NCBI RefSeq assembly: GCF_007748115.1
Contig: NZ_CP036289.1
Span: forward strand, 1,674,001 to 1,738,000
DNA length: 64,000 bases
Direction: 5' to 3'
Source: Bremerella volcania
Lineage (GTDB): Bacteria > Planctomycetota > Planctomycetia > Pirellulales > Pirellulaceae
This document shows, piece by piece, positions 41,397-54,403 of this stretch. The notes beneath the pieces are model-generated. The model had not been told where the DNA came from. It saw nothing but the letters and a program-made list of their open reading frames with translations, and made no database searches. The number at the start of each line of letters is the position of its first letter. Within the stretch, counting starts at the first letter, position 1. Both the position numbers and the translations under genes were made by a program.

Positions 41397-41957
41397 ATGG
41401 CCGATTCAGCAACCAGCAGCGCATCGCCCGACGTAGTAAAGGGACCTCCTATGAAAGCGAAAATGCAAATCTTGGGAGGCATTCTGGTCTTGGTTCTTTT
41501 GGAATGTGTGGTGGCATACATGATCATTCCCAGCCCTCAGGATGTGATTCGGGCCGCGGAAATGCAGGCACAAGATGGGCAGACCGACGGCACACCCATC
41601 AATCAAGAACTTGAGCCGCTGTCAGCCGACGAAGAAACCGTCGAAGTCGATCTGGGCACACCGTTTGGCATCACTGCCTATCGCCCGCTGAGCGAATCGA
41701 CGATGCGAATCGACTTTCATCTCTACGCGACGATTCGGGCCAGCGACGAGGCGGACTTTACCGCCTTGATGGAAAAGTATGAGAAGCGCTTTCGCGAACA
41801 GGTCATTGTGACGGTCCGCAGTAGCGATGAAGGAGAGCTTACTGATCCTAGTTTGGGGTTGCTCAAGCGTAAGATTTTAGAGAAAACCAACAACATCTTG
41901 GGCAAGCCGATGGTGCATTCCATCGTGTTTAGCGAGTTTTCCTTCGTCGAACAATAA
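41397..41957 (+). CDS. fliL: Flagellar basal body-associated protein FliL
   Basis: 186 residues. One membrane helix (about 25-45, ILGGILVLVLLECVVAYMII) precedes a periplasmic domain with the FliL-like end LLKRKILEKTNNILGKPMVHSIVFSEFSFVEQ. FliL rings surround the MotB periplasmic segment and support stator activity. The N-terminal cytoplasmic part is short and Ser/Ala-rich. It follows motB by 76 bp and precedes fliN by 33 bp. Sequence similarity to enteric FliL is low, so position strengthens the call. Confidence 0.85.
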   Translation: MADSATSSASPDVVKGPPMKAKMQILGGILVLVLLECVVAYMIIPSPQDVIRAAEMQAQDGQTDGTPINQELEPLSADEETVEVDLGTPFGITAYRPLSESTMRIDFHLYATIRASDEADFTALMEKYEKRFREQVIVTVRSSDEGELTDPSLGLLKRKILEKTNNILGKPMVHSIVFSEFSFVEQ

Positions 41958-41990: not shown

Positions 41991-42626
41991 ATGACTGACG
42001 ATCAAATGGGACAGGACGAGATTGAAGAGCTACTCCGTAAAGCCCAGTCGGGCGACGTGAGTGCTAGCGGTCCTGCCCCCAAACAACAGGAAGATATCGA
42101 GGCCCTCGACCAGAGCGATATTGAAGCTTTGTTTCAGAATTCTGGACCACCGGCGAGTTCACAGCCCAAGCAGCAACAGCCTGCCGCGGCCACCGCTACG
42201 CAGCCAGCGCCGCAAGCATCTCACACGGGATCCGGCGAAGGTGCTTCCGATATCGAGTATCTGCTCAATCAAGCCGAAGCCGCGATCGCTTCGTTGAATT
42301 CGCCGAACGATAACATGCCGGCCGGTATCGCTCCGTTCACGCTTCGCGACTTTGGCGGTTCCCCAGCCAGCACCGATAAAACAACCATCGACCTGGTTCG
42401 CGACGTCGAATTGGAAGTCAAGATCGAACTGGGACACGCGGATATGCATCTGGAGGAAGTCCTGCAGATGCAGAAGGGCTCGGTCGTGCCGCTGGATAAG
42501 CTGGCAGGCGACCCGGTCGATATCTTCGTCAACGGACGTTTGATTGCCCGCGGGGAAGTGTTGATTCTCAACGACAACTTCTGCGTGCGTATCACCGAAC
42601 TGATTGTCGGTGATTCGGTCGTCTAA
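41991..42626 (+). CDS. fliN: Flagellar motor switch protein FliN with three FliM-like CheY-binding motifs
   Basis: 211 residues. The C-terminal SpoA domain (about 130-208; VELEVKIELGHADMHLEEVL, GDPVDIFVNGRLIARGEVLILNDNFCVRI) identifies FliN. The N-terminal 100 residues are a Gln/Pro/Ala-rich linker with three short repeats: QDEIEELL (8-15), QSDIEALF (41-48) and SDIEYLL (86-92). These match the FliM N-terminal peptide (SQAEIDALL in E. coli) that binds phosphorylated CheY. No FliM and no CheC-like domain is present, so it differs from both FliM and FliY. It would form the lower C-ring with FliG and could take over signal reception. Confidence 0.93.
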   Translation: MTDDQMGQDEIEELLRKAQSGDVSASGPAPKQQEDIEALDQSDIEALFQNSGPPASSQPKQQQPAAATATQPAPQASHTGSGEGASDIEYLLNQAEAAIASLNSPNDNMPAGIAPFTLRDFGGSPASTDKTTIDLVRDVELEVKIELGHADMHLEEVLQMQKGSVVPLDKLAGDPVDIFVNGRLIARGEVLILNDNFCVRITELIVGDSVV

Positions 42627-42817
42627 CTGAGGGCATTTGCTAGCACGCAATTGCCCGGCGTTTCGCCTGATTCGTCTTGAGCCGAGACGGCCCAGTTTCT
42701 AAGATGCCTCACCCGCAATTATTGCGTGGGCGATGGGATGCGGCAGGAAGCTAACTCCCCACTATCTTTTTCGGCCTGGTCGCCTTCGCGACTTGAGTGA
42801 AAATCAGGAAGACTTTC

Positions 42818-43498
42818 ATGCGGAACGGAATCCTAGCTGCGTGCGTGTTGGCACTGACGTTAAACACTTGCCTGCAGAGTGCGAAGGCCAACGACTACGC
42901 CACTTCGCAAGTGCCACCCAATCAGCCGCTGCAAATCCAAAACGAAGCCCCGCCGGCCTTTCCTCCGCTGGCTCAAGCGCTGCATGTCGAAGCCATTCCG
43001 GACGCTGGCGACAACCAAGCCAATCCGGCGGTCGCTCAGCCTGCCGCCGCGGTCGAGCCGCTGCGTCTTCCTCCTCCGAGCAAGGCCCAGGAAGAAGGCG
43101 TTGCCATGCCGACGTTCAACTTTCAAAGCAATCAAACGGCCAGCATCGCCGCGAGCTTGTTTGTGGTGGTTGGGTTGTTTCTGATCTTTGCCTGGGTCGG
43201 CAAGAAGAACATGAAGTCAGGCAGCGGTCGACTCTCGAAAGAGATCATCCAGGTGCTTGGCAAGAGTCAGCTTAGCGGCAAGCAACAGTTGGAACTGGTT
43301 CGTGTCGGACAGAAGCTGCTTCTGCTCTGCGTCACGCCCAATGGCGTCGAAACGTTGACCGAAATCACCGAGCCCACCGAAGTGGAACGTTTGCTGACCA
43401 TCGTTCGTCAAGATTCGCCCGGCAGCATGACGGCTACCTTTCAAGACGTGCTGAGTCAAATGGGGCACCAGCCGGCACGCGGATTCCTGGAGGCCTAG
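42818..43498 (+). CDS. fliO: FliO-like flagellar export protein
   Basis: 226 residues from the ATG at 42818 (AGGAAG upstream; a GTG at 42797 is less likely). A signal peptide (about 1-24) is followed by a Pro/Ala-rich periplasmic stretch, one membrane helix (about 108-128, AASLFVVVGLFLIFAWVG) and a cytoplasmic FliO domain (VLGKSQLSGKQQLELVRVGQKLLLLCVTPNGVETLTEI). FliO helps assemble the FliP ring. It is preceded by a 190-bp gap after fliN that contains weak hairpins and may hold a promoter. fliP follows after 3 bp. Confidence 0.85.
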   Translation: MRNGILAACVLALTLNTCLQSAKANDYATSQVPPNQPLQIQNEAPPAFPPLAQALHVEAIPDAGDNQANPAVAQPAAAVEPLRLPPPSKAQEEGVAMPTFNFQSNQTASIAASLFVVVGLFLIFAWVGKKNMKSGSGRLSKEIIQVLGKSQLSGKQQLELVRVGQKLLLLCVTPNGVETLTEITEPTEVERLLTIVRQDSPGSMTATFQDVLSQMGHQPARGFLEA

Positions 43499-46677: not shown

Positions 46678-48549
46678 TTAAGCAGCTTGCGATCGTCGCG
46701 CTTGGCGAGCCCAGGCAATCCAGTTGGTCACCTCGGCCAAATCTGGAGGGTCACTGCTGCGGATGATTCGCTGGCCGTTGGTTGTCTCGGCGAACTCAGT
46801 AACTTCGGCGAGAAGATCTTTCGCCGATGCTTTCGCGACATCTTCCGGCGTCTTCAGTCCGCATGCGGTTAGCAACTGGGCGTCGTGCCCACGCAGCATA
46901 GGAATGCGATAGGCCAACACGGCCTGGGCTTGCCACTCGGCGAACAGCTTGGGCGTAATATGCTTGGCCTTCAGCTTGGGAGCGACAGTTTTTGGGTCGG
47001 CATTTATCAACTGGGCAACCGTCTTGATGCCGACGCCACCAAGCCGCTTGGCGGTCTTGTTGCCGATCGAAGGCGCATCGACGACTGGGTCTTCCCAGTT
47101 CAAATAGAACTTCAGCGGCTTGTCTTCAATCGGCTTCTTCTCTTGGATCGCTCGCTCGCGTGGCGGTTCTACTACCGGCGGTTGTTCGTCTTCTCGCGAA
47201 GCGATGGAAACCGATGGTGGGAAGTCCACCTTGGGGGACTCAACCTTGGCCGGTTCTGTCCTTGGCGATTCTACCTTGGGTGGATCGATCTTGGGCTGGG
47301 GCCGCGTCAGTTGAACGCGCTTGACCGGTATTTCATCTTCTTCGACCTCGGACTCCGGTTCTGGCGTCTTGGGTCGAATGGTCAGGCCTTTGACCGGTTG
47401 GAATGGCTCCGGCGGTTTCGGTTTCTCAGCGACAGGCTTCGGTGCCGGATCGTCTTCCTCGTCGTAGGAGGGGATCGGAATCGAAACACGCGGCTTCGGC
47501 TTTTCCTCTTCGATCTCGCGGCTTGGCTTGGGGGGTGCCGGTTTGATCGTCGTCTTGCGGGTGCCGGTCAGCTTGAGGCTGGAAAGACTCACTTCCGGAA
47601 GATCAGGCATTTCGTACAGCGGGCGTTCCCCTTCCTGGGGTTTGTCCGGGTTCATGTCCGCTTCCAACTCGTCGCGAACGACACGCACGTCTTCGGGGAG
47701 GTTGCGTTCGACTTTGCCGGTCTTCTGGTACTCGCGAAACATCTGCCGCACGAGTTCCGCCTGCTCGGCGTTTTCCATCCGATTGGTCACCCACTGCACC
47801 GGCATCTCGAGCGTGGCGAAAACGGTTTCGACGACCAGTAGCACGTACGGAGGTTCGTGGGCCGCTTCCTCGAAGGCACGGTTCAAGATCTTGGCCAGGC
47901 CAGCGATCGCGTAGCCGATCATTTCGGAAGCGACGTCACGGCAATTGACGTCGAGCCCTCGAGGCGGATTGCGGCGTCCCAGCTTGAAGTTGTAGTGGTC
48001 GATCAGTGTCTGGTAGTGGGCGTGCGATTTCGTCGCTCCGTCGCGCACCATTTGTTCGAGCCAGTTCTTACCGCTGGGCATTCGTACCGGCGGCAGTCCG
48101 CGAAGCTCGGCCGCCGATCGCAAACGATCGTACGAGCAACTAATGCTCCATTCACATGCCCGGTGGATGTTGTTTTCGGCCTGGGAACTGCCGGTGTGAA
48201 AGGGCATGATCGGGTCGCTGTAGTAGTGACTCAGCACGCCTGCGTTGTAGGCGACCTCCTGCCACTTTTCCGCTCGGATCGCCTCGACCAGCAGGTCGTA
48301 CCACTTTCTGGCCGCTTTCTCGGCACCGCCCCAGTAATCTTGCGAAGGGTGCAAGACGTGATTGCGAAAGTCTTTGAACTTCTTGTCAGGATCTTTCGAC
48401 CCGCGCAGGTAGGGCTCGTAGTGCTTCAGGAAGATGTTGCGTCGACGCTCGCTGTTCTCGGCCGGCAGATGGTTCAGCGCATCCATCGCCAGCTTGTGGT
48501 GCGTGCCGTTGGCATGGGCGGCGTACAGGATGTCGAACAGCAAATGCAT
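46678..48549 (-). CDS. Zinc-dependent phospholipase C-like protein with C-terminal helix-hairpin-helix (DUF4332-like) domain
   Basis: 623 residues. The N-terminal half (about 1-250) has the all-helical PLC/S1-P1 nuclease look, with candidate metal ligands in THHKLAMDALNH and in GVLSHYYSDPIMPFHTGSSQAENNIHRACEW. A Pro/Lys/Glu-rich linker (about 300-480) follows. The C-terminus (about 493-600) has a DUF4332-like double helix-hairpin-helix: DAPSIGNKTAKRLGGVGIKT and LKTPEDVAKASAKDL. No signal peptide is seen, so it is probably cytoplasmic. A good ribosome site (AAAGGAA) precedes the ATG. It is convergent with flhB. Lipase or nuclease activity is a family guess. Confidence 0.7.
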   Translation of the reverse strand: MHLLFDILYAAHANGTHHKLAMDALNHLPAENSERRRNIFLKHYEPYLRGSKDPDKKFKDFRNHVLHPSQDYWGGAEKAARKWYDLLVEAIRAEKWQEVAYNAGVLSHYYSDPIMPFHTGSSQAENNIHRACEWSISCSYDRLRSAAELRGLPPVRMPSGKNWLEQMVRDGATKSHAHYQTLIDHYNFKLGRRNPPRGLDVNCRDVASEMIGYAIAGLAKILNRAFEEAAHEPPYVLLVVETVFATLEMPVQWVTNRMENAEQAELVRQMFREYQKTGKVERNLPEDVRVVRDELEADMNPDKPQEGERPLYEMPDLPEVSLSSLKLTGTRKTTIKPAPPKPSREIEEEKPKPRVSIPIPSYDEEDDPAPKPVAEKPKPPEPFQPVKGLTIRPKTPEPESEVEEDEIPVKRVQLTRPQPKIDPPKVESPRTEPAKVESPKVDFPPSVSIASREDEQPPVVEPPRERAIQEKKPIEDKPLKFYLNWEDPVVDAPSIGNKTAKRLGGVGIKTVAQLINADPKTVAPKLKAKHITPKLFAEWQAQAVLAYRIPMLRGHDAQLLTACGLKTPEDVAKASAKDLLAEVTEFAETTNGQRIIRSSDPPDLAEVTNWIAWARQARRSQAA

Positions 48550-48660
48550 CGGGGATTCCTTTCCCGAGTTCCTTCAGTTCCGCATGCGGGGTGAGTGATG
48601 GCGACCAGCTAGAAGAATTCTAGCGAAAATAGCCCCTTTTCCCCAAGTCGGATTTGATGC

Positions 48661-49836
48661 TTACGCCTCGTCCAGCGGGTATCCGTTGGCCTCGAAATAG
48701 CCTCGCCAGCGGCGTTGAATCTCCTGGCGGGTAGCATCGTCCATGGTGTGGCTATTGCGGCGGTAGTCCTTGGTCCGCTCGGCGTAGTCGCGTACGCCTT
48801 GTTCGATGCGGTCGTACCCGTCCAGGTTGATCGCTTCGTAGATGCGGCGAACTTCCCCCACCGGGTCGGCGATCAGGTCTTCGTAGCGCGTCTGGCAGAC
48901 CTTCTCCCGTGGGACCGAGGCCAGGCCGCGGTCGTAGGCGGCGTACATTCGCTCGAAGCAGTCGAAAACGTACTCGCGATAATCGTCCTTCGAGACTTGG
49001 AATGCCTGCACTTCGTCCATGGTGTTCCACAGCCGGACCGTCGAGGCATACACGTCGTACGGGTCTCGAGCAATGTGGATGAACTTTGCGTCGGGGTAAC
49101 GCTCGGCCAGTTCTCCGATTCGGCCGGTGTGCGTAGGTGATTTGAGGATCAGCGGCTTCTGTTCCTGGACGGTGACCATCCGCATGAACAGGTCGAGTGT
49201 ATCGAGCCACTCCTCTTTGCGCTCCGGCGGAACGACTGCCAGGTCCAGGTAATCGGGGTCTGGCTTGGCGTTGTTGGGGAAGGCCATGCGGATGTACGGG
49301 GACATTTCTCCCAGGCTCAACACGCCGAATTCGTCTTCCTGCGGCTTCGACCACCCCATACCCATGTTGTCCATCGGGCGGCTCTTGGGCATGAAGAAGT
49401 TGCAGTATTTTTCGATCAAGCGGCCGTAAATAAGGAACATGTTCGGTGCGAAGCATTGAATCGTGTTCGGCGTGGCGTAACGATCGTCCGCTGCCATCAA
49501 CTCGTGCAGAAGGGTCGTGCCACTGCGCCAGTGACCGAGGATGAAGATCGGGTTCTCGATCTTGGCTTCCGCGATCTTTTTGCCGAAAAACAGTTTCTGT
49601 AACTGATCGCAGACGCTGTTGTTGATCGCAAAGCAGGATACGGTCGTGGCCAGACCCAACTTCAGGGGATGCACCTTGAAGCCATTCTTCGCTAGCAGAC
49701 TGGCCCACGTACTGACCTTCATCCCATGCCAGACGCGCGGCGTGTACCAGGGGTAATTGTTGGCCTTGGGTTTCTTCGGTTTTGGGGCTTCCGCCGGTTT
49801 CGACTGCGAATCGGTGGCGGGGGATGAGGCATTCAA
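48661..49836 (-). CDS. Sulfotransferase family protein
   Basis: 391 residues. The PAPS-binding loop reads ILGHWRSGTTLLHELM near 100-115 (5'-phosphosulfate binding) and IHIARDPYDVYASTVRLW near 250-267 (3'-phosphate binding). It would transfer sulfate from PAPS to a carbohydrate or other hydroxyl; planctomycetes carry many such genes. The N-terminus is Lys/Pro-rich and contains no obvious membrane helix. The frame begins with a TTG at 49836; no upstream ATG fits. It lies between flhB and flhA on the opposite strand and may modify flagellar or surface glycans, but nothing shows this directly. Confidence 0.88.
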   Translation of the reverse strand: MNASSPATDSQSKPAEAPKPKKPKANNYPWYTPRVWHGMKVSTWASLLAKNGFKVHPLKLGLATTVSCFAINNSVCDQLQKLFFGKKIAEAKIENPIFILGHWRSGTTLLHELMAADDRYATPNTIQCFAPNMFLIYGRLIEKYCNFFMPKSRPMDNMGMGWSKPQEDEFGVLSLGEMSPYIRMAFPNNAKPDPDYLDLAVVPPERKEEWLDTLDLFMRMVTVQEQKPLILKSPTHTGRIGELAERYPDAKFIHIARDPYDVYASTVRLWNTMDEVQAFQVSKDDYREYVFDCFERMYAAYDRGLASVPREKVCQTRYEDLIADPVGEVRRIYEAINLDGYDRIEQGVRDYAERTKDYRRNSHTMDDATRQEIQRRWRGYFEANGYPLDEA

Positions 49837-52366: not shown

Positions 52367-53494
52367 ATGAACATTCGCTCATTCCGCGCCAAATCGATGC
52401 ACGAAGCGTTAGAGCTGGTTCGCAAAGAACTAGGTCCCGACGCCGCTTTGCTTCACACGCGAGAAGTTCCCCAACGAGGCCTGAAGGGACTGCTCGGCGG
52501 GAAAGAGATCGAATTGGCGGCTTCGTCCGACTCGAACTTGAAGAGTCGTTTTGAAATCAAGCTTCCCGAAGAAGAGCGGGAAGCGGAAGCAGCCTCATCG
52601 GAACCCATCGAGCAAGTCGCTTCGCAGCCGCAAGAGGCAACGCCGGAGGACGACGCAGGTATCGACCTGGAAGCGATGTCGTTCAGCCAGACATTCTTTA
52701 GTAGTGGTCCCGGCTGGCCAGCGTCCCTATTGCGGATTCGCGAACGACTGGTGGAAGCCGAAGTGCCTGGCTTCCTGGCCGACTCGCTCTGCGAGAAGGT
52801 CCTGTCAACGCATACCGAAGAGTCGCAGCAAGACGAGGCGGTTCTACTGCAAGCCATCCGAACCGAATTGGCTGCTTCGATCCACATCGGCCATGACATC
52901 GATGACCCACGCGTCTATCCCCGTGTCGTTGCTGTCATTGGACCCACGGGCGTGGGGAAGACAACCACGATTGCCAAACTGGCTGCCAGGGCAAAGTTTG
53001 ATCACAAGCGCCGCGTCGGCATGCTGACCGTCGATACCTACCGGATTGCCGCCGTCGATCAGCTGCAGACCTATGCCGAGATCATGGACCTTCCGATGAA
53101 GATCGTTTCGACTCCGATGGAAGTCCGCAGTGCTATCAACGAGCTGTCGGACTGCGAGCAGATTTTCATTGATACGGCCGGCCGCAGCCCGCGAGACGAG
53201 GTGCAAGTACAGCAGCTCAGATCTTTGATAAAAGCAGCTTCCCCTGATGAGACCTATTTGGTACTGTCCGCCCCCAGCAGTTCGAAGAACCTGGCCGAGG
53301 CGGTGGCAAAGTTCACCACGGTGAGCCCTTCCAGCTGGGTATTAACCAAGATTGATGAGGTTGGTTCGTTGGGTAACACATTGAGTTTTCTACAAGATCC
53401 CCAGCTTCCGCTGGCATACGTGACCAACGGTCAGGACGTCCCCCAGGCTATCGCGACTGCCGAAGCGGAAGACCTGGTGGCTCGCATCCTGTAG
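52367..53494 (+). CDS. flhF: Flagellar biosynthesis GTPase FlhF
   Basis: 375 residues. SRP-type GTPase that marks the site and number of flagella. The basic domain (RSFRAKSMHEALELVRKELGPDAALLHTREV) is at the N-terminus, then an acidic linker (about 65-105), the N domain and the G domain with GPTGVGKTTTIAKLAARA (about 194-211), the DTYRIAAVDQLQTYAEI switch and DTAGRSPRDE. All GTP-binding motifs are intact. It follows flhA by 11 bp and precedes flhG by 39 bp. Confidence 0.96.
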   Translation: MNIRSFRAKSMHEALELVRKELGPDAALLHTREVPQRGLKGLLGGKEIELAASSDSNLKSRFEIKLPEEEREAEAASSEPIEQVASQPQEATPEDDAGIDLEAMSFSQTFFSSGPGWPASLLRIRERLVEAEVPGFLADSLCEKVLSTHTEESQQDEAVLLQAIRTELAASIHIGHDIDDPRVYPRVVAVIGPTGVGKTTTIAKLAARAKFDHKRRVGMLTVDTYRIAAVDQLQTYAEIMDLPMKIVSTPMEVRSAINELSDCEQIFIDTAGRSPRDEVQVQQLRSLIKAASPDETYLVLSAPSSSKNLAEAVAKFTTVSPSSWVLTKIDEVGSLGNTLSFLQDPQLPLAYVTNGQDVPQAIATAEAEDLVARIL

Positions 53495-53533: not shown

Positions 53534-54403
53534 ATGTCGTTTGAACCTTCTTTTCCCCGCGATCAAGCTACGCTCCTGCGAATGCTTGCCAAACGCGCCA
53601 TGATCGGCGGCACGCCGGCATTCGCGAAAGCGAAGACCTTCGTGCTGTTCGGCGGCAGCGGCGGGGTAGGAACGACGACCGTTTGTCATAATCTGGCCTG
53701 CGCGATGGGACTTGCCGGGCACCGCGTTGCCACGGTTGATTTGAATCCCAGCAATGCAGGACTGGCCCAGTTAACAGGTCGCACACCGACGGTCGGTATC
53801 GATGAACTGTTGACCGGGCGGCTCGATCTGCACGAATACCTGGTGCCAGGCCTGGCAGCGTCGCTATTGCTGCCGACCGACGAAAGCAGCGGGGCAGGCC
53901 AGTGGCCGGTGGCGGCTGTCGACCGACTAATCGAACAACTTATGGGCCTGGGACGCCATGCCGACATCGTATTGATTGATGCGGGCAATGAATTGAGTCC
54001 CCTGGCCGGCGAACTGTGGCGGATGGCCCAGTTGTTTCTTGTCGTGCTCAATCCCACGGCCGATGCCATCACGGCCGGCTACGAGCGAATCAGATCGCTG
54101 CACGGCTACTCGCCCAGAAGAGTCACCCATGTCGTCATGAATCGCGCCTCGAGCGATTCGGGGCATCTCGACTTAATCGCTGGAATGGATGCGACTGCCG
54201 CCAAGTTCTTGAACCTGGCGATCGAGTCAGTCGGGCACGTGGAGATGGCCTCTGAGATCGGAGCCGCTTCCTGCGCTGCCCAGCCGTTCATCCAACGCTA
54301 CGCCGATCATACTGCCAGCAAGTCGATCCAGCGGATTGCCGATCGTCTGGTACGCATGTCGTTAAGCCTTTCCCAATCGCCCTCTTCGAAGAGGGCCGCT
54401 TAA
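53534..54403 (+). CDS. flhG: FlhG/MinD-like ParA-family protein with altered Walker A
   Basis: 289 residues. The fold and position right after flhF identify FlhG (FleN/YlxH), which limits flagellar number. The deviant Walker A normally reads KGGxGK(S/T); here it is SGGVGTTT (42-49), lacking both lysines. The Walker B region reads IVLIDAGNEL. The C-terminal helix (IQRIADRLVRMSLSLS) may be the membrane-targeting segment. ATP hydrolysis is doubtful by family rules, although GGVGTTT loops with the signature lysine occur in CpaE-type relatives. The N-terminus resembles the FlhF-activating segment of other FlhG proteins only weakly. Confidence 0.88.
   Translation: MSFEPSFPRDQATLLRMLAKRAMIGGTPAFAKAKTFVLFGGSGGVGTTTVCHNLACAMGLAGHRVATVDLNPSNAGLAQLTGRTPTVGIDELLTGRLDLHEYLVPGLAASLLLPTDESSGAGQWPVAAVDRLIEQLMGLGRHADIVLIDAGNELSPLAGELWRMAQLFLVVLNPTADAITAGYERIRSLHGYSPRRVTHVVMNRASSDSGHLDLIAGMDATAAKFLNLAIESVGHVEMASEIGAASCAAQPFIQRYADHTASKSIQRIADRLVRMSLSLSQSPSSKRAA

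Follow-up and report, generated by a model that had tools for sequence, protein, structure and literature searches.

A standing question about motor switching is whether phosphorylated CheY (CheY-P) acts on FliM alone or on FliN too, and what sets the number of CheY sites and their sensitivity. The question is posed by a flagellar locus of Bremerella volcania, analyzed here within a window of 64,000 nucleotides (the whole stretch of DNA studied, positions 1,674,001 to 1,738,000 of contig NZ_CP036289.1, forward strand; window coordinates count from its first letter). The fliN gene of this locus encodes a switch protein with a long N-terminal tail, in which short sequences resemble the N-terminal EIDALL peptide of FliM; what are these sequences, and what might they do on FliN? 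At slightly better than even odds, we read the product of 41991..42626 as an ordinary FliN of the cytoplasmic ring (C-ring), with a disordered tail that has gained two FliM-type peptides acting as additional docking sites for CheY-P. The gene and its parts are the following:

41991..42626, + strand: fliN, a flagellar switch protein of 211 amino acids (aa); N-terminal tail of 133 residues, SpoA domain at the C-terminal end
42006..42047, + strand: array copy 1, FliM-type peptide MGQDEIEELLRKAQ, FliN residues 6-19; predicted helix 5-20
42087..42107, + strand: partial copy QEDIEAL, FliN residues 33-39; degenerate, poorly conserved and excluded from the copy count
42105..42146, + strand: array copy 2, FliM-type peptide LDQSDIEALFQNSG, FliN residues 39-52; predicted helix 42-49
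42237..42299, + strand: proximal helix with SDIEYLL (residues 86-92), FliN residues 83-103; predicted helix 84-103, 20 residues
42393..42605, + strand: SpoA (FliMN_C) domain, FliN residues 135-205; PF01052, E 4.7e-25

The gene sits within a run of flagellar genes, and its product matches the FliN model TIGR02480 with 102.6 bits (cut-off 84.05); the solved relatives of its SpoA domain are 1yab, 1o6a, and 8umd. Neither a CheC domain nor the middle domain of FliM (PF02154) was found in this protein by a domain profile search, and its scores for the FliY models NF005995 (107.6 bits, cut-off 218) and NF006272 (71.9 bits, cut-off 219) lie below the cut-offs.

FliM-type peptides in the FliN tail

The initial annotation had placed four short sequences in the tail (QDEIEELL at residues 8-15, QEDIEAL at 33-39, QSDIEALF at 41-48, and SDIEYLL at 86-92), all of which are found there, and had counted the first and the last two as FliM-type peptides. 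To score them, we derived a matrix of 14 columns from FliM peptides only (46 distinct sequences, of which 45 come from the same family and one from Escherichia coli; no FliN peptide was included), with background letters drawn from FliN tails, and a second one solely from the E. coli FliM peptide LSQAEIDALLNGDS. The threshold for the FliM matrix was set at 7.05 bits, the 95% point of shuffled tails, at which about 5% of tails are expected to contain one false hit. With the FliM matrix, the tail scores highest at residues 6-19 (17.5 bits), 83-96 (10.6 bits), and 39-52 (9.4 bits), and the partial copy scores 2.45 bits. When the tail was shuffled 20,000 times, the best score was equaled once and the observed second-best and third-best scores not once each; a single best site at least as high as the observed second occurred in 0.57% of the shuffles, and one at least as high as the observed third in 1.5%. 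The E. coli-only matrix ranks residues 39-52 highest (10.2 bits), followed by 6-19 (8.4 bits), 31-44, that is, the partial copy (5.6 bits), and 83-96 (5.1 bits). Across all stop-to-stop frames of at least 200 aa in the window (26,976 residues on both strands, non-gene frames included), 25 sites score at least 9.3 bits, three of them in the FliN tail, and copy 1 has the best score of the window. Copy 2 and the proximal site are thus weak one by one (about 0.1 expected per such tail), and they are convincing jointly and through their conservation. Both residues 6-19 and residues 39-52 show the pattern of the CheY-P-binding EIDALL peptide.

Among 32 aligned FliNs, which were selected for having copy 1, conservation reaches 90% or more at residues Q8, I11, E12, L14, and L15 but not in the linkers. 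Within the genus (five species, giving ten non-independent pairs), copy 1 has a ratio of nonsynonymous to synonymous differences (pN/pS) of 0.05, copy 2 (residues 39-49) of 0.13, the proximal helix of 0.16, and SpoA of 0.05, as compared with 0.27 for the linkers and 0.52 for the partial copy (residues 32-38), the fastest-changing stretch of the tail. By this comparison of sequences, copies 1 and 2 are more conserved than the linkers. AlphaFold2 predicts helices at residues 5-20, 42-49, and 84-103 and none at the partial copy 33-39; the rest of the tail is modeled with low confidence (mean predicted local distance difference test score (pLDDT) 60.7, predicted template modeling score (pTM) 0.30). 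The 207 array peptides of relatives have an aliphatic residue at position 1, followed by Q (82%), E/D, I (95%), E/D, L (95%), and L (82%), a conservation partly due to their selection by means of the matrix.

A recent DNA duplication within this fliN was considered and rejected: of 42 bases, 21 are identical between copies 1 and 2, 22 between the proximal site and copy 1, and 18 between the proximal site and copy 2, so that any duplication must be old here. In two relatives (L033 and L216), recent duplications of copies seem evident by eye.

A separate predicted helix before the SpoA domain

The site containing SDIEYLL differs from the two array copies in its placement. It lies 53-54 residues before the tail end in all 12 of the array-bearing family tails in which it passes the threshold (among 32 such tails), and 52-58 residues before it in 50 of the 57 named-locus tails with a passing site, one of these tails having a second, overlapping site at 48. 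Across the order, nearly all tails with a passing site have it 53-55 residues from their end. It also passes the threshold, at 51-55 residues, in 14 of the 38 family FliNs without array copies. Because the site is part of a longer helix at a near-fixed distance before SpoA, which is present in array-free FliNs as well, it was excluded from the copies; from its sequence and spacing, we read this proximal helix as a probable structural element of FliN, perhaps the counterpart of the MDDLWAEAL stretch of E. coli FliN. Of the three peptides originally counted, those at 8-15 and 41-48 therefore stand, and that at 86-92 does not.

FliM elsewhere in the genome

The locus had been described as lacking FliM, and FliN as its implied stand-in. 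Although the window contains no fliM, this description is misleading, since a complete fliM is present at 4979003-4980034 of the single contig (G000:C1), 3.3 Mb from fliN, in a genome (G000 in our numbering) of 6,496,182 bases that is 99.49% complete. Its product of 343 aa matches PF02154 (E 8e-65) and TIGR01397 (306 bits, cut-off 219.6) and is the sole FliM match above the Pfam cut-off in the genome. It has a canonical CheY peptide of its own, LSQAEVESLLNAM, within a protein that starts MSDNVLSQAEVESLLNAM (E. coli counterpart MGDSILSQAEIDALLNG). A complete fliM with its own EIDALL peptide was what the initial annotation had itself named as fatal to its proposal, and the substitution of FliN for FliM has to be abandoned for this genome, even though FliM-type peptides on FliN are borne out by the matrix and by conservation in relatives. 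The fliM gene lies 3' of a gene that is proA-like by eye (L001 5-2382).

FliM is also widespread among relatives. Of 119 genomes of the same family, 100 have a FliM match of E 1e-5 or better (22 of the 100 weaker than E 1e-20). FliM was retrieved for 68 of the 70 family genomes in which FliN was read, the peptide being present in all 68; in the other two, G074 and G088, both fragmented assemblies, no FliM was found at the cut-off. With a leave-out matrix, from which own and near-copy sequences were removed, 69 of 70 FliM peptides pass, the lowest at 14.4 bits (FSQQKVESQLNATV, genome G007); the single failure is the FliM of L112 from genome G031, where no FliN was found and which is outside the 68. 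Another 21 genomes, taken from the genus, the order, and the class, all have FliM with a recognizable peptide. Loss of FliM as the driver of the FliN copies is ruled out by the B. volcania fliM and by this broad presence. Each of the 70 family FliM sequences, on which the matrix was trained, has exactly one peptide copy. No trade-off between a weak FliM peptide and more FliN copies was seen in the 68 genomes: at zero to four FliN copies, the mean FliM peptide score is 29.9, 30.8, 31.9, 34.2, and 33.8 bits (n = 36, 13, 17, 1, and 1), as given by a matrix trained on the same FliM peptides.

Copy number among relatives

For counting, an array copy was defined as a site of at least 7.05 bits that starts more than 66 residues before the tail end. 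In the same family, FliN is matched in 96 genomes; the 70 FliNs at the top of this list, above 26 weaker or split matches that were set aside, comprise 38 with no array copy, 13 with one, 17 with two, one with three, and one with four, so that 32 of 70 have at least one. In other families of the order, 40 FliNs, taken from 55 matched genomes after leaving aside six already read and nine others, comprise four with none, 13 with one, 15 with two, and eight with three (36 of 40 with at least one), some single copies being weak. Two matches upstream of the start (L200 and L396) were removed by eye, one such removal preceding the count of eight, and L362, of which the whole frame was scanned as its tail end was unrecognized, was scored as zero copies. 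The initial annotation had made its proposal depend on conservation of the repeats and had suggested comparing their number across the family; the repeats do recur widely, and their number varies from zero to four. The FliN tail of Blastopirellula marina DSM 3645 is the same as that of L012.

A set of 182 FliNs for a tree, biased by similarity, was obtained from 219 sequences after dropping 34 as repeats before the scan and three tails truncated at the edge of a contig (L212, L224, and L233) before the counts; 73, 38, 48, 21, and 2 of them have zero to four copies. On the SpoA tree, in which few forks are resolved (82 columns), copy number changes 41 times and presence 9 times, by which measure copies appear to be gained and lost often and their presence is steadier. 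FliNs of class-level relatives have at most three copies, whose form differs slightly (LLDPSEIEKLLNS); by eye, the copies of L249-L259 (LLDPSEIEKLLNS / LLDPSDIEKLLQ / VVNNDDIDALF) are closer to each other than to Pirellulales copies, which suggests a separate expansion. Copies are rare in a set of 39 FliNs, most of them from elsewhere in the phylum (one or at most two, even with near-SpoA sites included), and E. coli FliN has no site above the threshold (best 6.0 bits).

The B. volcania genome also encodes, elsewhere, a separate protein with a CheC-like fold and SpoA. In the 70 family genomes, as seen by a search centered on the B. volcania form of this long paralogue, 37 have neither the paralogue nor FliN copies, one has the paralogue only, 10 have copies only, and 22 have both (Fisher p 1e-9); only one independent pair is found on well-supported branches (six on all), and no association is claimed.

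Candidate partners

Possible partners of the peptides are encoded in a chemotaxis cluster elsewhere in the genome and in the flagellar gene run of the window:

L304 4792-12645 (G000:C1 ~2542.8-2550.6 kb): chemotaxis cluster with cheW (PF01584), a PAS-HAMP methyl-accepting chemotaxis protein (MCP), cheR (by eye), cheA (1004 aa), and a CheC-like gene
52367..53494, + strand: flhF-like GTPase of the signal recognition particle type (PF00448), named from position and domain
53534..54403, + strand: flhG-like MinD/FleN ATPase; closest solved relative 4rz2 (E 5e-16), NCBIfam MinD/BcsQ models matching below cut-off

Adjoining the cheW-MCP-cheR-cheA-CheC-like cluster is a stand-alone, divergent cheY. 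Its product shares T87, A90, K92, Y106, K109, F111, T112, and K119 with E. coli CheY and differs at I95, A99, and A103, at positions that we take to be contact residues. The flhG-like protein has the sequence DQATLLR at its N-terminus, an instance of the DQAxxLR motif described in PMC12327844.

Discussion

Starting from the peptides, their conservation and varying copy number, a FliM with a peptide of its own, and a motor-type CheY, we favor, with a probability of about one half, the reading that the FliN copies are extra CheY-P docking sites alongside the FliM route rather than a replacement of it. CheY-P is bound by the EIDALL motif of FliM and FliY (PMC9126983), and the α4-β5-α5 face of CheY engages the N-terminal helix of FliM (PMC11528121). 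By analogy, the disordered N-terminal tail of FliN would have gained two peptides of this type, which would serve, where the switch has its base, as flexible docking sites supplementing the canonical one of FliM; binding of CheY-P to them and an effect on switching are what we infer. In the Salmonella C-ring, 34 FliM are accompanied by 102 FliN, about three FliN per FliM (PMC11087270). With this ratio, two peptides per FliN would add ~204 sites and lift the number of docking sites per motor from ~34 to ~240, which could create a local reservoir of CheY-P or an avidity effect.

Several observations weigh against this reading. With the FliM route intact, signal reception does not require the FliN peptides; 38 of the 70 same-family FliNs do without any array copy; and an EIDALL-like sequence can be a generic amphipathic helix. 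Another 22 sites of the window score as high as copy 2, and therefore copy 2 and the proximal site mean little singly and conservation has to decide. In the CheY-bound Salmonella ring, CheY makes no contact with FliN according to PMC11528121, with the qualification that E. coli FliN itself has no site above the threshold. Finally, the same kind of N-terminus binds FlhG in other bacteria (PMC12327844, PMC12826062).

This last point leads to the main competing proposal, which we regard as unlikely, that the FliN peptides recruit FlhG, together with FlhF from the same gene run, and serve the assembly, number, or placement of flagella instead of chemotaxis. The N-terminal 36 residues of FliY are reported to be necessary and sufficient for FlhG binding in Geobacillus/Bacillus (PMC12327844), FlhG of monotrichous bacteria is reported to bind FliM/N through the FliM N-terminus (PMC12826062), and the window contains both flhF-like and flhG-like genes, the latter with the DQAxxLR motif. 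However, it is FliM, not FliN, to which FlhG binding is reported in monotrichous bacteria (PMC12826062), and the peptide is on FliM too in all 68 family genomes with both proteins read, so that FlhG has a site without FliN. CheY-P docking and FlhG recruitment are compatible, and the peptides may serve both partners. Rather improbable, in our view, is a purely structural role, in which the copies, as amphipathic tail helices, would pack within or between subunits of the C-ring, or against FliH, and would be like EIDALL in helix composition only. The proximal helix 83-103, motif-like yet longer and at near-fixed spacing, is an example of such an element, and FliN helices are exchanged between neighbors in the Salmonella ring (PMC11528121); the array copies retain Q-x-[ED]-I-[ED]-x-L-L but differ between FliNs in their number and spacing, as a packed element would not, and the low-confidence prediction of the linkers is as expected for disordered stretches. 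As for a takeover of CheY reception by FliN for want of FliM, the absence of fliM from its usual slot between fliL and fliN is what commends it; with the complete, peptide-bearing FliM encoded at 4.98 Mb, which already refutes it for B. volcania, and with FliM and peptide in 68 of 68 family genomes and 21 of 21 of the genus, order, and class, it retains hardly any probability.

It is worth comparing the FliN arrays with the known carriers of the peptide. They share with the FliM N-terminal EIDALL peptide the pattern and the location, the tip of a C-ring protein's flexible leader. They differ in that FliN carries between one and four of these peptides, as against a single one in each of the 70 family FliMs. 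FliY of Bacillus subtilis and Thermotoga maritima is likewise a SpoA protein with an N-terminal EIDALL-type peptide, whereas the present FliN is without the CheC domain and has several peptides. Full or degenerate EIDAL motifs occur sporadically in FliN/FliY of 12 bacteria from spirochetes, Firmicutes, and Epsilon-/Gammaproteobacteria (PMC6946799); the motif section of that report mentions neither tandem copies nor Planctomycetota. In an open-access collection of papers, outside which most subscription journals fall, we found no description of tandem peptide arrays on one FliN, or of any in Planctomycetota. We thus rate a single EIDAL on FliN/FliY as known and the multiplication of the known peptide on the neighboring switch protein in a large lineage as new.

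If the CheY-P reading is true, these motors may have far more messenger-docking sites than the textbook motor. A more tentative generalization, to which we give somewhat less than even odds, is that FliN of the Planctomycetia is a multivalent CheY-P receptor with zero to four tandem peptides, providing hundreds of docking sites per motor besides FliM, and that their number is an evolvable setting of switch gain. As FliN carries zero to four peptides between related species and the FliM peptide is kept, the effect of docking-site number can be tested by species comparison or by removal of copies; should FlhG be the partner, this range of species would test how C-ring peptides help flagellar counting.

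Neighboring genes

The genes on either side of fliN are the following:

41397..41957, + strand: fliL-like gene, directly 5' of fliN; PF03748 (E 9.6e-5, 23.3 bits, slightly below the gathering score of 24.6)
42797..43498, + strand: fliO, directly 3' of fliN; PF04347 (E 7.4e-13)

E. coli has its fliM in the slot between fliL and fliN, which is without fliM here. Farther along the window, at 46678-49836 between flhB and flhA, the + strand flagellar run is interrupted by two - strand open frames, of 623 aa and 391 aa; the 391-aa frame is sulfotransferase-like by eye.
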